Part shown: piece after piece, positions 4,104-18,561 of the stretch | Layout of the letters: each line of letters starts with the position of its first letter | How positions within the stretch are numbered: position 1 is the stretch's first letter | The notes under the pieces: generated by a model | The model's input: only the letters and a program-made list of their open reading frames with translations | Database searches by the model: none | What the model was told of the DNA's origin: nothing | Assembly (NCBI GenBank): GCA_028687545.1 | Contig: JAQTZZ010000005.1 | Coordinates: forward strand, 1-64,000 | DNA from: Candidatus Wallbacteria bacterium | GTDB lineage: Bacteria > Muiribacteriota > JAQTZZ01 | Reading direction: 5' to 3' | Length of the DNA stretch: 64,000 nucleotides | Made by a program: the position numbers and the translations under genes

Positions 4104-4694
4104 ATGCTAAGTCTGCTAACGAAACAAACGGGCAAAACAATTAGAAACAAGACTTTCACTACTTTTGATATTTCAAAGATCCTTGAAGTTCATCCAAGCA
4201 CTGTATCCAGATGGATAAACGAAGGAAAATTAAAAGCATTCAACACTCCAGGCAGCCATAAACGAGTTTCAGATAAAAATCTGCTGGAATTCTTAAAAAA
4301 GTATGATATGCCGATCCCTGATTCCTTGAACCACGAAAAGAAAATTCTGGTCGTTGATGATGATGAAGTTGTTTCAAAGCTGATCAAAAAGATTTTGGAA
4401 GGAAGAAGAAAATACAAAGTATTTATCGCCAAGGATGGATTCCAGGCCGGGGAAGCAGTCAGCGATTTTGAACCGGGCCTGGTAATTTTGGACATCATGC
4501 TTCCAGGGATCAATGGCTACGACGTCTGCAAAATGATCAAAGAAAAGCATAAAAAAATAAAGATACTTGGGATCACTGGTTATGACACAGAGGAGAATAT
4601 CCGCAAAATGCTTGCCTCAGGTGCGGATGATTTAATGGTAAAACCCGTTGTAACCAGTGAACTGGTGAAAAAAGTCGGTTCGTTTTTCAAGTGA
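4104..4694 (+). CDS. HTH (excisionase/MerR-like) - receiver regulator
   Basis: The 196-residue protein joins a small winged-helix/excisionase-type DNA-binding domain (about 17-62, DISKILEVHPSTVSRWI) to a full receiver domain (about 79-196). The receiver has the acidic pocket DDD (85-87), phosphoacceptor Asp130 (LVILDIMLPG) and the conserved KP near the end. It is a close paralogue of the protein at 17602-18561, so related regulators bracket the gas vesicle genes. It ends 46 bases before gvpA. Control of the vesicle genes is inferred from position. The start is uncertain: the ATG lacks a ribosome site, and alignment with the paralogue suggests translation could begin about 12 codons later at a non-ATG codon. 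Confidence 0.8.
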   Translation: MLSLLTKQTGKTIRNKTFTTFDISKILEVHPSTVSRWINEGKLKAFNTPGSHKRVSDKNLLEFLKKYDMPIPDSLNHEKKILVVDDDEVVSKLIKKILEGRRKYKVFIAKDGFQAGEAVSDFEPGLVILDIMLPGINGYDVCKMIKEKHKKIKILGITGYDTEENIRKMLASGADDLMVKPVVTSELVKKVGSFFK

Positions 4695-4740
4695 ACAGGA
4701 TCGAAATTCCTGACAATCTCAGTGAAGGGAGGTGAAAAAC

Positions 4741-4947
4741 ATGGCAGTCGAAAAAGCAATCGGTTCCAGCAGTCTGGTCGAGGTTATCGACAGGATTCTT
4801 GACAAGGGCGTTGTAGTTGACGCCTGGGTCAGAGTCTCGCTGGTCGGCATCGAGATCCTCGCGATTGAAGCCAGGGTCGTAGTGGCATCAGTCGAAACTT
4901 ACCTGAAGTATGCGGAAGCCATCGGCCTGACGGCGACAGCGGCGTAA
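4741..4947 (+). CDS. gvpA: Gas vesicle shell protein GvpA (copy 1)
   Basis: This 68-residue protein is the major gas vesicle shell subunit. It carries the classic GvpA core [20 protein letters not shown] followed by [20 protein letters not shown]. Subunits polymerise into the rib structure of a hollow, gas-permeable protein shell in the cytoplasm. The ATG at 4741 follows a strong GGGAGGTG; the in-frame GTG at 4732 lies inside that ribosome site and is rejected. The protein is identical to the second copy at 5022-5228. Confidence 0.97.
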
Positions 4948-5021: not shown

Positions 5022-5228
5022 ATGGCAGTCGAAAAAGCAATCGGTTCCAGCAGTCTGGTCGAGGTTATTGACAGGATTCTTGACAAGGGCGTGGTAGTTG
5101 ATGCATGGGTGAGAGTATCACTTGTCGGCATCGAGATCCTTGCGATTGAAGCCAGAGTCGTAGTGGCATCAGTCGAAACTTACCTGAAGTATGCGGAAGC
5201 CATCGGCTTAACTGCAACAGCAGCATAA
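5022..5228 (+). CDS. gvpA: Gas vesicle shell protein GvpA (copy 2)
   Basis: The 68-residue product is identical at every residue to copy 1, yet I count 16 base differences, all silent. The 45-base start and a central stretch of about 50 bases are unchanged. The ribosome site is AAGGAG seven bases before the ATG. Two copies of the most abundant shell subunit presumably raise its dosage, as is seen in other vesicle clusters with repeated gvpA genes. The pattern fits an old duplication under strong purifying selection with possible gene conversion. Confidence 0.97.
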
Positions 5229-5285: not shown

Positions 5286-5999
5286 ATGATTCGCCAAGAA
5301 GTTCCTTCCCGAAGCGGAGTATTTATGAGACCGGAAGTAACGGATCTGAAGAACGCAGCTGAGAACGTCATTTCATTTTATGAAGAAAAGATCGACAGCG
5401 TAGGAGCGGTTTTCGACAACACCCAGATTTTTGACAATTTTCAGGAAGCCTTTCTTGAAGATAAGGAAGAGGGTCAAAAAATCAAGACTGAGTTGCGGAA
5501 CATCCTTGCCCAGAACGAGCACTTGAGAAAAAAAGACTTTGACAAAATAACGCACAATGTAATCTCCGCCCAGGAAGAGCTGGAAACTGAAGTCAAGAAT
5601 TTATTAAAAAGCTATCTTAATCAGCAGCGGGAAATGTCGCGTACTCTGAGGGAGAATCTGGCTGAATTTAAAGCCGCCCTTGTCAAAGGCGATCTGCAGA
5701 GGGTCAAGAAATTTCAGGAAATGATCAAAGAGATCCTGGCCAGTCAGGATTTCAGGAAAGAAGAAGCCAATTCCAAGTTGAAGGAATTTCAGAAAGAGCA
5801 GCAGGAGATGGCAAAAAAACTTAAGGAACTTTTAATCAAGGGAAATCAGCTTCGGATCAAGGATCTCAAGGAAATGTTCCGCGAGTTCATGGTTCAGCAT
5901 AAAGAGCGGCTGGCTCGCAGGAAAGAAAGAAGAAAAGAAGTAGACATACTGCTTGGACGAATAAAAAATTCAACGGAGGTCAGCCATATAGAGACTTAA
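5286..5999 (+). CDS. Helical, GvpC-like gas vesicle protein (tentative)
   Basis: This 237-residue protein is almost entirely charged helix and probable coiled coil. Imperfect repeats can be seen: QQREMSRTLRENL...ALVKGDLQRVKKFQEMIKEI and EQQEMAKKLKELLIKGNQLR...KEMFREF, and a related stretch near residues 69-95. GvpC, which clamps the outside of the vesicle, is also built of helical repeats rich in E, Q and K, but this protein lacks the typical AEKQAQEL signature, so the link rests on position and texture. It starts 57 bases after gvpA. The true start may be the ATG at 5325 (GGAG upstream) instead of 5286 (AGGA upstream). Confidence 0.6.
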   Translation: MIRQEVPSRSGVFMRPEVTDLKNAAENVISFYEEKIDSVGAVFDNTQIFDNFQEAFLEDKEEGQKIKTELRNILAQNEHLRKKDFDKITHNVISAQEELETEVKNLLKSYLNQQREMSRTLRENLAEFKAALVKGDLQRVKKFQEMIKEILASQDFRKEEANSKLKEFQKEQQEMAKKLKELLIKGNQLRIKDLKEMFREFMVQHKERLARRKERRKEVDILLGRIKNSTEVSHIET

Positions 6000-6056
6000 A
6001 GAAAAGTTTCGGACCAGGAAGAGCTAATAATTCAATCACGAACAAGGAGGAACAAA

Positions 6057-6863
6057 ATGGGAATCTCTGAAAGCATGAAAGGTATCGCCGAAAACATCGC
6101 CAGTTCCAAACAGGAACGGACAAAAACACTTGTCGGAATACTCTCCGACACCCGTACGATTTTGAGTAAAGCCAGGGACACTGTAAAGGACTTTTCAAAG
6201 GATCGGGAAAAAATGGCTGAGGAGCAGGCCAAGAATCTTTCCGATTTCGCCGGGACTCTGTCCAAAAATGTTGAGTCCATGCTGACTGAATTCAAGACGA
6301 ATCGCAAAGATATGAGCGAGGAGCAGGCAAAAAAAATGGCGGACTTTGTGAAAAATCTTTCCAAAGAAGTAGAGGAAATTAAAACCTCAGCCAATCAGAA
6401 AGTGAAAGAGTTCAAGGAAGCTCATGTCCAGATGTCTGAAAATTTAAAAAATGATCTGGCGAAAAATGTCAGGGAGATCGCGAATCACACGAAAGAGCTC
6501 CGGAAAAATGCCAGGAAACTGGTAGGTGAATATAGTGCTGACATGAAAAAAGCTAAAGAAGCCTGGCAGAATCGGGATACTGCTTCCATCAAAACCAGAA
6601 AAGCAGTTTCAGCGCCTAAACCTGCCGTAGAAAAAGCCTCAACAGTAAAAGAGTCTGTGGAAGAAAAGGTGGAAGCCAGGGAAACCGGAAGTGACCTGCA
6701 CGGCACGGTTCTGAAGCTGATCAGCAAGCATCACAAGGGTATCAGTGTAGGAGATATGGAAACTAAACTTGGAGTGATGCGGGCCAGGCTCGGCCAGGTA
6801 GCCAAAAAACTTCTGGATGAAGGCAAGGTCAGGAAAGAGGAGAATCTATATTTCCCTGAGTAG
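6057..6863 (+). CDS. GvpC-like repeat protein with C-terminal winged helix
   Basis: The first 190 or so residues of this 268-residue protein are helical repeats that resemble GvpC. The units KMAEEQAKNLSDFAGTLSK and DMSEEQAKKMADFVKNLSK recur about 33-36 residues apart, close to the 33-residue GvpC repeat. A linker rich in A, P, V and E (about 190-210) leads to a compact domain (about 213-268) with VLKLISKHHKGISVGDMETK and LLDEGKVRKEENLYF, which looks like a winged-helix fold. A GvpC-type clamp carrying a possible nucleic-acid or protein-binding module is unusual. The ribosome site is AAGGAGG before the ATG. Confidence 0.72.
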   Translation: MGISESMKGIAENIASSKQERTKTLVGILSDTRTILSKARDTVKDFSKDREKMAEEQAKNLSDFAGTLSKNVESMLTEFKTNRKDMSEEQAKKMADFVKNLSKEVEEIKTSANQKVKEFKEAHVQMSENLKNDLAKNVREIANHTKELRKNARKLVGEYSADMKKAKEAWQNRDTASIKTRKAVSAPKPAVEKASTVKESVEEKVEARETGSDLHGTVLKLISKHHKGISVGDMETKLGVMRARLGQVAKKLLDEGKVRKEENLYFPE

Positions 6864-6921
6864 GAAGACAGGTTCCTGTCAAAGATGAGAATATCAATAA
6901 ACCTGGAAAGAGGTGAGGAAA

Positions 6922-7875
6922 ATGATTGATGAGATGATTACAGTGCTTGAGGCCAGTCCGATGCCTGATTTTGTAGAAACTAAATACATCAAAGCCGTCA
7001 CAGAGAGATCCCTTTCATATATCAAGGCTGGTTTTCCAGTCCATTTCAGAGGGATCTCAGGTACAGGCAAGACTACACTTGCCATGCATGTGGCAAGCAA
7101 AGTCAACAGACCTGTGGTGATGATCCACGGGGACGAGGAATTCACGACTTCCAACCTTGTCGGTGGAGAATATGGCTACAGGCTCAGGAAAGTCGTGGAC
7201 AGGTATGTCTCACGGGTTGTGAAAACCGATGAAGACATGGTCAAGCGCTGGGTGGACAATCGTCTGACTGTAGCATGCAAATACGGATTCACATTGATCT
7301 ATGATGAATTCACCCGCTCCAGGCCTGAGGCAAACAATATTCTGCTTTCGATTCTGCAGGAGAAGATGATGGATCTGCCTGTCGGAAGAGGCAGCGAAGA
7401 ACAGTACCTGAGGGTTGATCCTGACTTCACCTCCATCTTTACCTCCAATCCCGAGGAATACGCCGGAGTCCACAGGAGCCAGGATGCGTTAAGGGACAGG
7501 ATGATAACCATGGACCTGGATCATTTCGATTACGAGACAGAGGTAGCCATCACTCAATCAAAATCCAAACTTTCCAGAGCAGACACAGAGATGATAGTGA
7601 ATATCGTAAGGGGTTTAAGGGAATCCGGGAAGTGCGAATTCTCACCCACGATCCGCGGCAGCATCATGATTGCCAAAACATTCAAGATCCAGGGCGCTTC
7701 TAGAGCGAAACCCAACGGAGCTTTTTTGCAGGTCTGCCAGGATATCCTGGCCTCAGAAACAAGCAGGGTCGGCTCTAAAACCAATCAAAGCAGGGTGAAA
7801 GACATAGTCAAGGATCTGGTCGAGAAACATACCAGAGGGAGTAAACCGGATGAAGAGAATCCAGCAGTTAACTGA
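6922..7875 (+). CDS. gvpN: Gas vesicle AAA+ ATPase GvpN
   Basis: GvpN is a MoxR-type AAA+ ATPase needed for vesicles to enlarge to full width. The 317-residue protein has Walker A GISGTGKT at residues 44-51, the family stretch VVMIHGDEEFTTSNLVGGEYG, Walker B LIYDEFTRSRPE and sensor-like FTSNPEEYAG. I chose the ATG at 6922, preceded by AGGTGAGG, over the GTG at 6913. The last 26 bases overlap the next gene, suggesting translational coupling. Confidence 0.96.
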   Translation: MIDEMITVLEASPMPDFVETKYIKAVTERSLSYIKAGFPVHFRGISGTGKTTLAMHVASKVNRPVVMIHGDEEFTTSNLVGGEYGYRLRKVVDRYVSRVVKTDEDMVKRWVDNRLTVACKYGFTLIYDEFTRSRPEANNILLSILQEKMMDLPVGRGSEEQYLRVDPDFTSIFTSNPEEYAGVHRSQDALRDRMITMDLDHFDYETEVAITQSKSKLSRADTEMIVNIVRGLRESGKCEFSPTIRGSIMIAKTFKIQGASRAKPNGAFLQVCQDILASETSRVGSKTNQSRVKDIVKDLVEKHTRGSKPDEENPAVN

Positions 7876-11846: not shown

Positions 11847-12941
11847 ATGAAAAAGATGGGAGTTTACATCTATGGAATAGTAAATTCTGCTGCAGATCTG
11901 CAGTTTGCCAATCCCGGAGACTCAGCTTCCGATGCGGGAGGAGTTCTTCCAAAAACGCCGGGGAAAAGTAAATTCGGGCGGGGAGTGCATACAGTTTCAT
12001 ATCAGGATATCTCAGCTCTGGTTTCAGCCTCTGAAATAGTCGATTACACGCACATGAGGACAGAGATCCTGGCCAGGCTGCTGGTGTGCCATCAAACTGT
12101 GATCGAACGAGTCCTGAATTCACATGCAGCAGTTATTCCCATGAAACTGGGTACTTTCGCTCAGGATGAGGCGGAAGTCAGGGATATCCTGTCCAAGGGA
12201 TACGGCATCACAAAAGAGATTTTTCAAAGAATCAGCGATAAAGTTGAGATTGATGTCGTGGCCCGCTGGAATGATTTCAGTTCAGTGATTAAAGAAGCGG
12301 GGGAAGACAGGGAAATCAAAGAATATAAAGAGAAACTGCTGACCAATCCCAAAGGGATCACAGTTGATGACCAGATGAAGATGGGTTTCATGGTTGGAAA
12401 AGCTCTCAATGGGAAAAAAGAACTGGTCGCCGGTAAAATTCTGGATGATTTAAAATTATTTTCCGTGGATATCAAGACCCATGAGCTTATGAATGACGAG
12501 ATGGTGATCAACATCGCATTCCTGATTGATAAAGAAAAACGGGAAAGTTTTGATCAGAAAGTGGAAACTTTAAATGCCGAATTCGGGGATAAATTGAATT
12601 TCAGATGCGTGGGACCGCTGCCGCCATACAGTTTCTTCACCCTTGAAGTAAAAAAAATGCAATTCGAGGAAATCGACTGGGCAAAGAAAAGACTTGGGAT
12701 TTCCAACGATGTTTCGAACAGGGATGAGCTGAAAAAAGCCTATCAGAAACAGGCGTTTTCCACTCATCCGGACAAGAATCCGGGGGAGTCCTGTGCAGTC
12801 GCGGAATTCAATGAAGTGAACAAAGCATACAAGATAATCTCCACCTATTGCATTGCGCTGGAACAGGAGCATCAGGACCAGATCCCCCTGTGCCGGGAAA
12901 TGTTCAAAGAGAACACTATGCTGATAAGGGTGAGAGAATAA
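11847..12941 (+). CDS. gvpF/L: GvpF/L family protein fused to a DnaJ-like domain
   Basis: Residues 1-270 of this 364-residue protein form a GvpF/L domain: it begins GVYIYGIV, has AVIPMKLGTFAQDEAEVRDI near 95-115, and ends with VGPLPPYSFF. Residues about 275-335 form a J domain with HPD at 307-309 followed by FNEVNKAYKII. J domains recruit Hsp70, while GvpF/L proteins are accessory factors that bind GvpA during nucleation. The fusion suggests this copy hands nascent shell protein to Hsp70. It starts two bases after the CDC48-like gene, and its stop overlaps the next start (TAATG). Confidence 0.9.
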   Translation: MKKMGVYIYGIVNSAADLQFANPGDSASDAGGVLPKTPGKSKFGRGVHTVSYQDISALVSASEIVDYTHMRTEILARLLVCHQTVIERVLNSHAAVIPMKLGTFAQDEAEVRDILSKGYGITKEIFQRISDKVEIDVVARWNDFSSVIKEAGEDREIKEYKEKLLTNPKGITVDDQMKMGFMVGKALNGKKELVAGKILDDLKLFSVDIKTHELMNDEMVINIAFLIDKEKRESFDQKVETLNAEFGDKLNFRCVGPLPPYSFFTLEVKKMQFEEIDWAKKRLGISNDVSNRDELKKAYQKQAFSTHPDKNPGESCAVAEFNEVNKAYKIISTYCIALEQEHQDQIPLCREMFKENTMLIRVRE

Positions 12942-13708
12942 TGGAAAAAGAAGGGAAATATATTTATTGCATTATCGCCACGTCCCAGGAGCGGAATTTC
13001 GGACCGATCGGTGTCGGCGGAAGAGGGGATGACGTTCTGACAATAAATTACAATGACCTGAGCATGGTCGTGAGCAGTCACCCACTGATTAAATTTGTCG
13101 TAGGAAGGGAAAATATCCTTACACATGAGCGGGTGATTGAAGAAGTGATGAAGGAATTCGGCGCTGTGCTGCCGGTCAGATTCGGGACCATCGCATCTGA
13201 CGCGGAAGAGATCAGGAATCTTCTGGACAGAAGATACCGGGAGTTCAAGACCGCATTGATGGAGGCTGACCACAAGATAGAGCTTGGCGTCAAAGGCGTC
13301 TGGAAGGACATGGGCATAATCTATCAGGAAATCATCGATGAGAACAAAGTGATTAAAAAAGCCAAGGAAGAGATCGAGAGCACCAATCTGAAAAGCAACC
13401 AGGCCAAACTGGAAGTGGGCAAGAAAGTGGAAAAGGCTCTTTCGATCAAGAAAAGAAAAGAAGCGGAAAACGTTGTGGATACCTTGAGGATTGCAGCCAC
13501 TGATTACAGGCTCAATCAACCCATCGGCGACGAGATGTTCATCAATGCGGCTTTCCTGGTGGGCAAAGGCAGGGAAAAGGAGTTCGACAACATCATGGAC
13601 GAACTGAGCGAAAAGTATCAGGAGCGGACAAAGTTCTTGTATGTGGGGCCTTTGCCGATCTTCAATTTTGTGAACATCGTGATTTATCCTGAGGAATGGG
13701 AGAAATAA
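12941..13708 (+). CDS. gvpF/L: GvpF/L family gas vesicle protein
   Basis: The 255-residue protein has the family pattern KYIYCII at the start, VLPVRFGTIASDAEEIRNLL near 68-87, and LYVGPLPIFNFVNIVI at the end. Its ATG shares a base with the previous stop (TAATG), which argues against the longer upstream frame. GvpF/L proteins are minor accessory proteins for early vesicle assembly. It is most like the next gene, so the two probably arose by tandem duplication. Confidence 0.93.
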   Translation: MEKEGKYIYCIIATSQERNFGPIGVGGRGDDVLTINYNDLSMVVSSHPLIKFVVGRENILTHERVIEEVMKEFGAVLPVRFGTIASDAEEIRNLLDRRYREFKTALMEADHKIELGVKGVWKDMGIIYQEIIDENKVIKKAKEEIESTNLKSNQAKLEVGKKVEKALSIKKRKEAENVVDTLRIAATDYRLNQPIGDEMFINAAFLVGKGREKEFDNIMDELSEKYQERTKFLYVGPLPIFNFVNIVIYPEEWEK

Positions 13709-14475
13709 TGGAAGACTCCTGCAAGGAAGGCAAGTACATTTACTGCATCATCGCGTCCAGCGGAGTACAGTCCTTTGGCCCTTTGGGGATCGGCGGAAGA
13801 GGCGACGAGCTGCACACAGTCGTTTTTAACGATGTTTCAGCTGTAGTCAGCAACTCGCCGATCAAGACTTATCCTGTTTCCCGGGAAAATGTGCTTACCT
13901 ATGAAAGGGCGATTGAGGAAGTAATGAAGGAACGCGCCGTACTGCCTGTCAGATTCAACACGATTGCAGAAAGCGCAGACAAGCTGAAAAAAATCCTGGC
14001 AAAAGAACATGATAAGTTTGTCGAACTGCTGAAAAAAATCGAGGGCAAAAAAGAGCTCGGCTTAAAGGTGATATTTAAGGATGACCTGATCTACAAAGAA
14101 ATCCTGGAAAAAAGCGAAGATATCAGGAAGTTGAAGTCTGCAATTTCTGCCGAACCCCTGGCCAAGACTTACTTTCAGAGGATGGAAATCGGGAAAATGG
14201 TTGAAGCAGCGCTGCAGAAAGAGAAAAACGCCTGTAAAGAAGAGATCATCAATACCCTTTCGCCGATTGCGCAAGAGGTAAAAGTCAACAACAGCTATGG
14301 GGAGCTGATGATCATCAACGCCGCTTTCCTGATCGAAAAAGAAAGGGAAGCTGAATTTGACCGGAATGTCCAGGAACTGTCGGAAAAAGAAAGTGCAAGA
14401 TTGAAATTCAAGTATACCGGAAATCTCCCGCCATTTAATTTCGTAAATGTGGTGATTCGTACGGCGGGAGATTAG
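13708..14475 (+). CDS. gvpF/L: GvpF/L family gas vesicle protein
   Basis: This 255-residue paralogue of the preceding gene begins KEGKYIYCIIAS, has RAVLPVRFNTIAESADKLKK and ends YTGNLPPFNFVNVVI. The start ATG overlaps the previous stop as TAATG, with GGGAG eight bases upstream. An accessory role in vesicle nucleation is expected from the family. It is followed by gvpG after two bases. Confidence 0.93.
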   Translation: MEDSCKEGKYIYCIIASSGVQSFGPLGIGGRGDELHTVVFNDVSAVVSNSPIKTYPVSRENVLTYERAIEEVMKERAVLPVRFNTIAESADKLKKILAKEHDKFVELLKKIEGKKELGLKVIFKDDLIYKEILEKSEDIRKLKSAISAEPLAKTYFQRMEIGKMVEAALQKEKNACKEEIINTLSPIAQEVKVNNSYGELMIINAAFLIEKEREAEFDRNVQELSEKESARLKFKYTGNLPPFNFVNVVIRTAGD

Positions 14476-14477
14476 AA

Positions 14478-14714
14478 ATGTTTTTAATTGACGATATCCT
14501 GGTGGCCCCGCTGAAGGGCCTGATCTGGCTGGGAGACAAGATCGGGGAGGCAGCTGACAGGGAATTTTCCGATGAAGGACTTTTGAAAGAGAAACTGATG
14601 GAACTGCAGATGAACTTTGAACTGGACAGAATCAGCGAGAGTGAATACACCAGGCTGGAAACAGAGCTGCTGGAGCGCCTGGATGAAATCAGGAAATTAA
14701 AGGAGGGTATGTAA
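14478..14714 (+). CDS. gvpG: Gas vesicle protein GvpG
   Basis: The 78-residue helical protein matches GvpG: it starts FLIDDILVAPLKGLIWLGDK and continues with a charged helix (KEKLMELQMNFELDRISESE). GvpG is a small essential accessory protein found next to gvpF/L in many clusters. It sits two bases after one gvpF/L gene and one base before gvpO, and its last codons contain the AGGAGG that serves gvpO. Confidence 0.93.
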   Translation: MFLIDDILVAPLKGLIWLGDKIGEAADREFSDEGLLKEKLMELQMNFELDRISESEYTRLETELLERLDEIRKLKEGM

Positions 14715-14984: not shown

Positions 14985-15791
14985 GTGGAAGGATTGTACG
15001 TCTATTGCATCAGAGAAAAAAGCGGAGAAGCTGCTGAAATTTCCGGCTCAGGCATTGGCGGATCTGAAGATGTCAAAATCATCAGCCATCGCGATCTGGA
15101 AGTAGCAGTCAGCAGAGTGTCTCTCGAGCAATTCGGGCCCGAGATCCGGACCAAGGCCCTGGAGAACCTGGCCTGGATCAAGGAAAAAGCAGTTGCCCAC
15201 GAAATGATCATCGAAGCCGCGATGAACTGTAACGGCAAGTTATTAAATCTGATACCCATGAAATTCGGAACGATTTTCAAAGAGGAAGCCGGCTTGAAAG
15301 AAGCCCTGGACCAGGATTATCCTCTGATCAAAAAAGTCCTGGAAATTACTCGCGGCAAGCAGGAGTGGTCGGTCAAGGCATATCTGAAAGACAGAAAGAA
15401 ATTCGAGCAGCTGATCAGAAAAAACAATGAAACCATCAGGGAAGCCGAGAAAAATATGGCTGATTTACCTGAAGGAACTGCTTTTTTTATGGAAGAGGAA
15501 TTGAATCAGGCAGTTTCCGAAGTACTGGATCAGGAATTAACCAGGATTGCGGAAAGTCTTTACGAAAACCTGAAAAAACAGATTCCTCAGATAGTTAAAA
15601 TTAATGTTTTAGGGAAAGAGCTGACTGGAAGACGGGAGCCGATGGTGCTGAATTCAGCCTGTCTGATTCCTGAAGCAGATGTGGAAATTTTTAAAAAAGA
15701 TCTGCGAAGATTAAACAGGGAGATTCAGGCGGATGGAATTTATCTTGAATCCAGCGGTCCCTGGCCTGCTTATAATTTCACCAATTATTAG
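14985..15791 (+). CDS. gvpF/L: GvpF/L family gas vesicle protein
   Basis: The 268-residue protein starts with GTG after a GGAGG site. It has LYVYCIREK at the N-terminus, NLIPMKFGTIFKEEAGLKEA near 87-106 and SSGPWPAYNFTNY at the C-terminus, all family landmarks. It is the most divergent of the four GvpF/L copies, has a long charged middle, and may play the GvpL-type role. It closes the tightly packed run of genes; a 128-base gap with repeats follows. Confidence 0.92.
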   Translation: MEGLYVYCIREKSGEAAEISGSGIGGSEDVKIISHRDLEVAVSRVSLEQFGPEIRTKALENLAWIKEKAVAHEMIIEAAMNCNGKLLNLIPMKFGTIFKEEAGLKEALDQDYPLIKKVLEITRGKQEWSVKAYLKDRKKFEQLIRKNNETIREAEKNMADLPEGTAFFMEEELNQAVSEVLDQELTRIAESLYENLKKQIPQIVKINVLGKELTGRREPMVLNSACLIPEADVEIFKKDLRRLNREIQADGIYLESSGPWPAYNFTNY

Positions 15792-15919: not shown

Positions 15920-16465
15920 ATGTATAGGAACGAGACATGCCATGAAAACAAAAACGTCACTTTAGTGGATGCCATAGATAAAGTTTTAGAGGTTGGAGCG
16001 GTCATCAATGGAGATATTGTACTGAGAATGGCAGATGTAGACCTTGTTTTTTTAGGGCTGCGGCTTATTTTGACCTCAGTCTCCAAAGCTGAAGAAATAT
16101 CCGGTAAAAATTACAGTGATCAGAATGAATTCACTCCAGCGGACCTGGAATATATAGAAAACCTGCAGAACGAAATCAGAAAGACCGAAGAAAACATTCC
16201 TAGCATGATTGATTTGGGCAGTCCCAGAAAGGCGGAGCAGGGTTTAGCCAAGCTGGTTTTGACGATTGTAGAACTGATCAGAAAATTGATGGAAAAAGAA
16301 GCTTTCCGCAGAGTTAAAAAAGGAACACTGTCCAATCCTGAAATTCAAAAATTGGGTCTGAGCCTCAAAGCTGTTAAGAAAAAGATCAAGGAAATTCAGC
16401 TGATTTTCGGGCTTGAGGATGAAGAATTGAATCTGGACCTGGGTCCGCTTGGAAATCTGATGTAA
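15920..16465 (+). CDS. gvpJ-gvpK: GvpJ-GvpK fusion protein
   Basis: The 181-residue protein joins two vesicle families. Residues about 12-62 are a GvpA/J-type shell domain (LVDAIDKVLEVGAVINGDIV, ADVDLVFLGLRLILTSV). Residues about 98-181 match GvpK (GLAKLVLTIVELIRKLMEKE, IFGLEDEELNLDLGPLGNLM). GvpK is an essential accessory protein normally encoded separately, and GvpJ is a minor shell protein at the tips. The fusion implies that the two act together at the same place, probably in tip nucleation. An AAAGGA site precedes the ATG. Confidence 0.9.
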   Translation: MYRNETCHENKNVTLVDAIDKVLEVGAVINGDIVLRMADVDLVFLGLRLILTSVSKAEEISGKNYSDQNEFTPADLEYIENLQNEIRKTEENIPSMIDLGSPRKAEQGLAKLVLTIVELIRKLMEKEAFRRVKKGTLSNPEIQKLGLSLKAVKKKIKEIQLIFGLEDEELNLDLGPLGNLM

Positions 16466-16478
16466 GGAGATTTTTTAG

Positions 16479-16781
16479 ATGTCTGAACAAATGACGCATG
16501 CAGTGAATGCCACGAATCTGGCGGATATTTTAGAGCGTGTTTTAGATAAGGGAATCGTGATTGCAGGAGACATCAAGATTCAGATTGCAGATATCGATCT
16601 GCTCACCATCAAAATCAGGCTGCTGGTTGCTTCAGTGGATAAGGCGCTGGAGATGGGAATAAACTGGTGGCAGGAAGATGCTTATCTATCAACAAAATCA
16701 AAGAATAAAGAGATCAAGAAAGAAAATTCCGAACTGAAAAAGAGATTGACAAAATTGGAAAAAAAGATAAACAACTCATAG
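16479..16781 (+). CDS. gvpJ: GvpJ-type minor shell protein
   Basis: The 100-residue protein has a GvpA-family domain (about 13-60, NLADILERVLDKGIVIAGDI, LLTIKIRLLVASV) with the IKIQIADIDL pattern typical of GvpJ, GvpM or GvpS rather than GvpA. A charged helical tail follows (KEIKKENSELKKRLTKLEKK). It lies 13 bases after the GvpJ-GvpK fusion with AAGGAG upstream. A role at the vesicle tips is known for related proteins. Confidence 0.9.
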   Translation: MSEQMTHAVNATNLADILERVLDKGIVIAGDIKIQIADIDLLTIKIRLLVASVDKALEMGINWWQEDAYLSTKSKNKEIKKENSELKKRLTKLEKKINNS

Positions 16782-16790
16782 AGAGGCTCA

Positions 16791-17486
16791 ATGAGAACAT
16801 TGATTTATGTCCCGATAATTCACACCAGTGCCGATCTCGGCTCTCTGGCGGGCGATGTAACCAGGCGCGGGATCGCAGACCTGGGGGAAGATTTCTGGGT
16901 TAAACATCAGAGTACAGTTGAAGGCTTCTGGGATGTAATCACTGATTATTTTGACACTCTGGATCCTGCCGGATTGAAAATATACCAGGATGGCATGATT
17001 GCTGACGGCGAAATGGGGATGAAAATTGTCGAAGAAAGCCTTAAATCAGGCAGCAGGAATTATGCAGTGGTTTCGAAACTCCTGAAAAGAGGAGCTGTTT
17101 TAGTTAAAACTGAAGACTTGAAATTAGTCAAAGCAGAATACGACAGATTGATGGAATTGACCAGGGCGGAATCCATCTGCAGGAAATTGTATGCTTTCCT
17201 GAAATATAAAATCGTCAAAAGCAGGCTGCTGAAAAAAAGAGATAATTACATAATCCAGAGAATCGAGGAAACTCTGGGCCAGGATGAAACTGGGATCCTT
17301 TTCATCGGTGCCCTGCACGACCTGATCAGTAAATTATCGAAAAACTTCAAGATAATAGAGATCAAAAGCATCCGGAAAGTCAGAGATTACCAGCTCCTCC
17401 TGCCGTCTTATCATAAGGACAGGCAAAGGTTTGAGCAGCTGAGTGAATATCTTGTCTCACAGATCGATAAAATGCATTTATCTTGA
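16791..17486 (+). CDS. Unknown protein at the end of the gas vesicle operon
   Basis: I do not recognise this 231-residue protein. It begins MRTLIYVPIIHTSADLGSLA, has no membrane segment or P-loop, and contains a basic helical middle (YKIVKSRLLKKRDNYI) followed by ETGILFIGALHDLISKLSKN. That last piece faintly recalls the 'GALH' motif of TraB/GumN-type proteins, but not enough for a call. It starts nine bases after the gvpJ-type gene with GAGAGG upstream, so it is probably cotranscribed with the vesicle genes. Confidence 0.75.
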   Translation: MRTLIYVPIIHTSADLGSLAGDVTRRGIADLGEDFWVKHQSTVEGFWDVITDYFDTLDPAGLKIYQDGMIADGEMGMKIVEESLKSGSRNYAVVSKLLKRGAVLVKTEDLKLVKAEYDRLMELTRAESICRKLYAFLKYKIVKSRLLKKRDNYIIQRIEETLGQDETGILFIGALHDLISKLSKNFKIIEIKSIRKVRDYQLLLPSYHKDRQRFEQLSEYLVSQIDKMHLS

Positions 17487-17601: not shown

Positions 17602-18561
17602 TTGAGGATCAAGACTTTTACTACGTTCGATATTTCCAGGATTCTGGAAGTGAATCCGAATACAGTAACCAGGTGGATAAATGCCGGTAAATTAAAGTCA
17701 TTCATTACTCCGGGAGGGCATAACAGAGTCCTGGCCAAGGACTTGCTGGCATTCCTGAAGGAATACAACCTGCCGGTCCCTGTAACCCTCACCTGCGAAA
17801 AAGAGATCAAAATTCTGGTAGTGGATGATGATGAAATTATCTTAAAGACATTCAAACAGGTACTGGAGAAAAACGGCTACGCTGTTTATCTTGCTAAAGA
17901 CGGGTTTCAGGCAGGTGATGCGCTGAATGATTTTGAACCTCAGCTTGTGGTTCTGGATATCCTGCTGCCTGGAATCAACGGATTTGCTGTCTGCAAGGCG
18001 ATTAAAGGAAAATATAAGAAAACAAAAATACTGGGGATCACAGGCCATTATTCTGAAGAGAGCAAAAATAAGCTGATGGCTGCAGGTGCGGCGGATTTGC
18101 TGGCAAAACCCATTACCAATGATGATCTGTTGAAAAAAGTCGATTCATTGTTAAACGATGATAATTTGCCGATCAGCGGATCCCTGAATGATCTGGGAAA
18201 AATCAAAATTCTGGTTGTGGATGATGATGAATCAGTCTTAAAGATCATTAAATTGATTTTGGAGGAAAACGGGTACCAGGTAAAGCTGGCTGCTGACGGA
18301 TTTCAGGCTGGAAAAGCCATCGGTGAATTTGAACCTCAACTTGTGATTTTGGATATCATGCTTCCAGGGATCAGCGGTTTCGATGTCTGCAAACTGATCA
18401 GGGAAAAATATAAAACAACCAAAATACTGGGGATCACAGGCCAGTATACTGCAGAAATCAGGAAAAAAATAATTGCCTGCGGTGCTGATGATTTAATTGA
18501 AAAGCAGTTCAATGTTGATGATCTGGTTGAAAAAGTCGGTTCACTGTTAAAGTCTCAGTGA
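17602..18561 (+). CDS. HTH (excisionase/MerR-like) - REC - REC regulator
   Basis: The 319-residue protein has the same N-terminal DNA-binding domain as the gene at 4104 (DISRILEVNPNTVTRWINAG, about 3-48) followed by two receiver domains. The first (about 69-185) has Asp119 in LVVLDILLPG and KP near its end. The second (about 200-319) has LVILDIMLPG but EKQF where KPF is usual. The receivers are so alike (both have DGFQAG and FEPQLV) that an internal duplication is likely. Translation appears to start at TTG with AAGGA upstream. Control of the vesicle cluster is inferred from position. Its end overlaps the convergent response regulator by seven bases. Confidence 0.82.
   Translation: MRIKTFTTFDISRILEVNPNTVTRWINAGKLKSFITPGGHNRVLAKDLLAFLKEYNLPVPVTLTCEKEIKILVVDDDEIILKTFKQVLEKNGYAVYLAKDGFQAGDALNDFEPQLVVLDILLPGINGFAVCKAIKGKYKKTKILGITGHYSEESKNKLMAAGAADLLAKPITNDDLLKKVDSLLNDDNLPISGSLNDLGKIKILVVDDDESVLKIIKLILEENGYQVKLAADGFQAGKAIGEFEPQLVILDIMLPGISGFDVCKLIREKYKTTKILGITGQYTAEIRKKIIACGADDLIEKQFNVDDLVEKVGSLLKSQ

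Follow-up and report, generated by a model that had tools for sequence, protein, structure and literature searches.

In Bacillus (Priestia) megaterium, the gas-vesicle genes run in the order F-G-L-S-K-J (PMC11445434, PMC11223475); GvpS is a GvpA homologue, and GvpK is encoded directly after it, as in the locus described here (PMC11223475, PMC11445434). The gvpS and gvpK reading frames overlap by 47 bp (PMC11223475). Contact between GvpA2 and GvpL requires each of GvpS, GvpK and GvpJ in this organism, and a role in seeding was proposed (PMC11445434). In the published view, the GvpS of Bacillus is the counterpart of haloarchaeal GvpM (PMC9501494, PMC11445434). GvpM was recovered with GvpK as bait in haloarchaea, and in split-GFP assays GvpL was the only partner of GvpJ, GvpK and GvpM (PMC7688916). 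Published localisations of GvpS, GvpK and GvpJ on vesicles conflict: tagged GvpS and GvpK bind loosely and are lost in 6 M urea, whereas GvpJ is retained and was mapped to the cylinder, close to the polarity reversal point (PMC11223475); in another study, as related in PMC11445434, GvpS stayed on bicones in urea. None of the four main gas-vesicle systems studied can do without GvpK (PMC11445434), whose role is unknown, and the seeding of gas vesicles is an open question (PMC9994262, PMC11445434).

The 64,000-nucleotide stretch of Candidatus Wallbacteria DNA analysed here (the window) shows the B. megaterium arrangement as G-(x)-L-[S-K]-J, but GvpS and GvpK, two proteins in B. megaterium, form a single chain. 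The gene (15920..16465, forward strand) is one ORF of 181 codons from ATG to TAA, without an internal stop, preceded by an AAGGA-like site and encoding a C-terminus that reads ...ELNLDLGPLGNLM. By hmmscan, its N-terminal half matches PF00741 (Gas_vesicle; residues 14-52, E=3.6e-10, 40.2 bits versus a cut-off of 25) and its C-terminal half PF05121 (GvpK; residues 102-181, E=4.5e-28, 97.6 bits versus a cut-off of 25), the latter over model positions 6-85 of 85 and including the C-terminal LNLDLGPLG. The first-pass annotation had proposed that a shell-type domain and a GvpK domain share this 181-residue protein, so that GvpK adjoins a minor shell-like protein; with both halves above the Pfam cut-offs and a complete GvpK on the same polypeptide as the shell-type domain, this holds. 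Chance is excluded by the Pfam scores together with 13 other genomes that carry the same architecture at 65-80% full-length identity. The fusion is the sole GvpK of the source genome, a 4.54-Mb draft. A search of this genome found four PF00741 proteins, namely two GvpA copies, one GvpJ and the fusion, to which alone the S role is thus left.

The same annotation had taken the shell half for GvpJ. Three classes of GvpA-family domain were recognised by motif in the fetched loci: A, with ...YLKYAEA; J, with LADILERVLDKGIVIAGDI...GINWW; and S, with VTLLDLLDRVLDKGVV.GDVTLSVADVDLIYLGL and without WW. The shell domain is short (62 columns), and a tree of it did not separate S and J cleanly; we therefore used class HMMs trained on unfused domains of classes S, J and A, sorted by motif, with the fused domains held out. 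The shell domain of the window's fusion (15959..16075) scored 69.7 bits with S, 47.8 with J and 9.4 with A; S was still ahead of J when the WW-motif tail was removed (59.6 versus 44.8), and all 21 distinct held-out fused domains ranked S > J > A. The same models placed haloarchaeal GvpJ in class J and haloarchaeal GvpM in class S, which the latter shares with the window's shell half, although in haloarchaea gvpM is not beside gvpK (order J-K-L-M) and the proteins are separate. NCBIfam profiles also favour GvpM (27.9 bits) over GvpJ (20.1 bits) for the window's fusion; they prefer GvpA for two alphaproteobacterial fusions, and the S class of these two consequently rests on the class HMMs.

Gene order points the same way. 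Directly upstream of the fusion lies gvpL (14985..15791; GvpL/GvpF family by Pfam, best NCBIfam match GvpL), and directly downstream a separate gvpJ (16479..16781; 100 residues, PF00741 63.2 bits, NCBIfam GvpJ 50.3 bits) with the J-type motif ...EMGINWW, both on the forward strand, so that the fusion occupies the gvpS place of the Bacillus order. The G(I/M/L)(N/D)WW motif (GINWW type) is absent from all fusions and present in the J genes that adjoin them. By these comparisons, the shell half is of the GvpS (Bacillus)/GvpM (haloarchaea) class and not GvpJ, the S label resting on gene order, the test with haloarchaeal GvpM and the published S-M homology. A pairing of GvpK with GvpJ would find some echo in a Natronorubrum haloarchaeal plasmid, where a J-class GvpA-family gene stands just before gvpK, and in the RefSeq name GvpJ given to the alphaproteobacterial fusions. 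Against the class scores of the 21 fusions, the missing WW motif and the window's own gvpJ, we consider it highly improbable, and the GvpJ identity of the shell half was rejected.

Unfused GvpK proteins carry an N-terminal segment of 30-45 residues (for example TIDAELDDLRREVERLRGILPDRVDVDPDAVENGL in L078), to which residues ~70-101 of the fusion align, and the fusion thus consists of a whole GvpS and a whole GvpK. The region between the two Pfam domains (residues 53-101, 16076..16222) can accordingly be divided into a seam (~62-72) and the GvpK N-terminal helix (~73-92), with the GvpK domain proper following at 16223..16462. AlphaFold predicts helix 15-25, strands 27-37 and 40-51 and helix 54-61 in the shell half, an alpha1-beta1-beta2-alpha2 arrangement, then helix 73-92 and long helices 102-134 and 139-163 in the K half; mean pLDDT is 72.8 and pTM 0.52, with values of ~60-70 in the shell half and the lowest at the seam. 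In the PDB, Foldseek ranks the gas-vesicle shells 7r1c and 8gbs first and second, both as weak matches (E 0.04 and 0.1). The predicted residues 15-61 may thus resemble the GvpA/GvpB shell in fold, but differ from it in their S-class sequence and in the attached GvpK. A sequence search of solved structures returned 8gbs only (E=0.13).

The source is a draft assembly of 108 contigs, and a merging of two genes by assembly or sequencing error would be conceivable on that ground. The recurrence of the identical architecture and linker in the 13 further genomes leaves such an error with almost no probability, and it was rejected for the window's lineage; purifying selection on the linker also argues that the fusion is no artefact. 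The labels of these genomes include Bacteroidota, Omnitrophota, Atribacterota, Thermodesulfobacteriota, Elusimicrobiota, Planctomycetota, Neomarinimicrobiota, Desantisbacteria and others, although most are metagenome bins and individual phylum labels may be wrong. This spread, together with two genomes of the same phylum as the window (G020 and G036) in which GvpK is present but S and K are unfused, suggests horizontal transfer. Across residues 57-101, dN/dS was 0.03-0.12 in four close pairs, resembling both domains, and 0.35 in one more distant pair; judged by these ratios, purifying selection maintains the linker in the window's lineage. The seam region of the 13 homologues shares no in-frame internal start that has a ribosome-binding site, and separate internal translation of GvpK was rejected. 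The low linker dN/dS and the lack of a conserved internal start together indicate that, most likely, translation of the fusion yields a single polypeptide and selection acts on it as such. Cleavage of this chain into GvpS and GvpK after translation would be in keeping with a seam that is the least confident part of the prediction and the most variable in length, but we regard it as quite improbable. The seam of three relatives (L037, L038, L043) carries insertions; L037 and L043 have in common the in-frame FTPHQSKLGAG, which repeats the FTP of the linker.

GvpK was found in 22 of the 382 sampled genomes, four of which, the source genome included, carry this S-K fusion. One of the 22 (G361) encodes the reverse K-S order in a single 155-residue ORF (L018:1456-1920), with both Pfam domains above cut-off. 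Further S-K fusions occur in two Chloroflexota bins, one Rhodococcus, one actinomycete bin and on Methylosinus and Methylocella plasmids; the sample of genome contigs was drawn with fusion queries and therefore gives no frequency. Ten other fusions also exceed the Pfam cut-offs in both domains. Single cases (e.g. L056 and L068) could be errors, and the single Rhodococcus and actinomycete fusions could result from frameshift errors. The fusions of Methylosinus sp. C49 (WP_142864684.1) and Methylocella tundrae (WP_197732044.1), named GvpJ, join an S-class shell domain and GvpK in one chain like that of the window, but have a longer, proline-rich linker, 28-35% identity to the window's protein and a separate place in the GvpK tree. 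Membership of the Chloroflexota and alphaproteobacterial fusions in the window's lineage was rejected on their other linkers and other positions in this tree. The window's fusion lineage forms a single clade (support 100/99), and the fused state requires seven changes at best, four of them forced by well-supported branches, the number of origins being approximate with 81 columns and long branches. As read from these data, the S-K fusion arose several times, once in reverse order. The partner of GvpK in the surveyed fusions was always GvpS, never GvpJ or GvpA. S-K fusions are already in RefSeq under the name GvpJ; in the open-access literature we found no description of a natural gvpS-gvpK or gvpJ-gvpK fusion.

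The recurrence of fusions in distant bacteria suggests that GvpS and GvpK act side by side at the start of a gas vesicle. We think it probable that the window's protein, in whose gene a complete gvpS (gvpM-class) is joined end to end with a complete gvpK, acts uncleaved as a bifunctional seeding factor. The S half, with its predicted GvpA fold, would nucleate or cap shell growth, and the helical K half, on the cytosolic side, would dock it onto GvpL, with GvpG, where the shell protein GvpA could then be loaded. Once fused, S and K would reach the GvpL-centred seeding complex together, at a fixed 1:1 ratio; fusion may also hold the hydrophobic S half in solution. A place at the nucleating tip, which the first-pass annotation thought probable, may or may not follow, as the published localisations conflict. 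We counted in favour of a seeding factor the two domains, the S class, the lack of a second GvpK or another S candidate in the genome, the selection on the linker, the several origins, the K-S order, the overlap of unfused pairs, the recovery of GvpM with GvpK bait (PMC7688916) and the need for S, K and J in the GvpA2-GvpL contact (PMC11445434). Against it count the haloarchaeal split-GFP result, with GvpL as the only partner of GvpJ, GvpK and GvpM (PMC7688916), a possible cleavage of the chain and the chance that the fusion just mirrors gene adjacency and shared translation control. In adjacent unfused pairs, K starts mostly within ~30 nt of the S stop, often overlapping it, and a stop lost between two such translationally coupled genes could leave both proteins undisturbed and have no functional meaning. 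The insertions tolerated at the seam (L037, L038, L043) and single cases such as Rhodococcus JCM 9791, fused among unfused sisters, would suit this neutral origin; the purifying selection on the linker across genomes of many phyla does not, and the K-S order requires a rearrangement beyond stop loss, so that we hold it to be unlikely. A bolder extension of the seeding-factor reading, which we put forward only tentatively, is that S-K is a covalent seeding unit in which GvpK permanently adjoins a shell-like subunit, on the outer face of that part of the vesicle which is built first, and that fusions in both orders reflect one S-K module in gas-vesicle systems generally.

The fusion is a new arrangement of known parts, of use because the role of GvpK is unknown. 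Recurrent GvpK-GvpS fusions mark GvpS as a functional partner of GvpK, and a natural 1:1 S-K protein is a ready tool to locate GvpK on growing vesicles; it could also serve in smaller gene sets for ultrasound reporters.

The cluster that holds the fusion is otherwise an ordinary gas-vesicle cluster, with all genes on the forward strand. It begins with two near-identical gvpA genes (4732-4947 and 5022-5228; PF00741, own-genome search), whose protein sequences are identical over 68 residues. These are followed by two coiled-coil-like proteins (5286-6863), a gvpN-like AAA ATPase (6913..7875; assigned by position and the AAA_5 domain PF07728), an Hsp20 protein (from 8186), an ArsA-type ATPase (from 8769) and a CDC48 ATPase (from 9671). 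A GvpF/L-family protein with a C-terminal DnaJ J-domain (11847..12941; PF06386, PF00226) has near full-length relatives in the gvp clusters L042, L039, L036, L052, L043, L051, L062 and L060, and its domain content hints at a GvpF-type chaperone that may recruit Hsp70. Two more GvpF/L-family genes (PF06386) lie at 12848-13708, with the real start probably at 12938, and at 13696-14475; gvpG (14478..14714; PF05120) and an 88-residue protein without a Pfam match (from 14716) lead up to gvpL. Most relatives encode a conserved CxxC protein of ~90 residues between the S-K fusion and gvpJ (L035:3067-3327, L021, L034, L036-L038, L042-L044), which was not found in the window. After gvpJ comes a 231-residue protein (16791-17486) without a Pfam or NCBIfam match, kept in many gvp clusters at 33-63% identity. 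Two proteins that combine a helix-turn-helix with response-regulator domains flank the cluster at 4104-4694 and 17602-18561 (forward strand), and are possible regulators of it.
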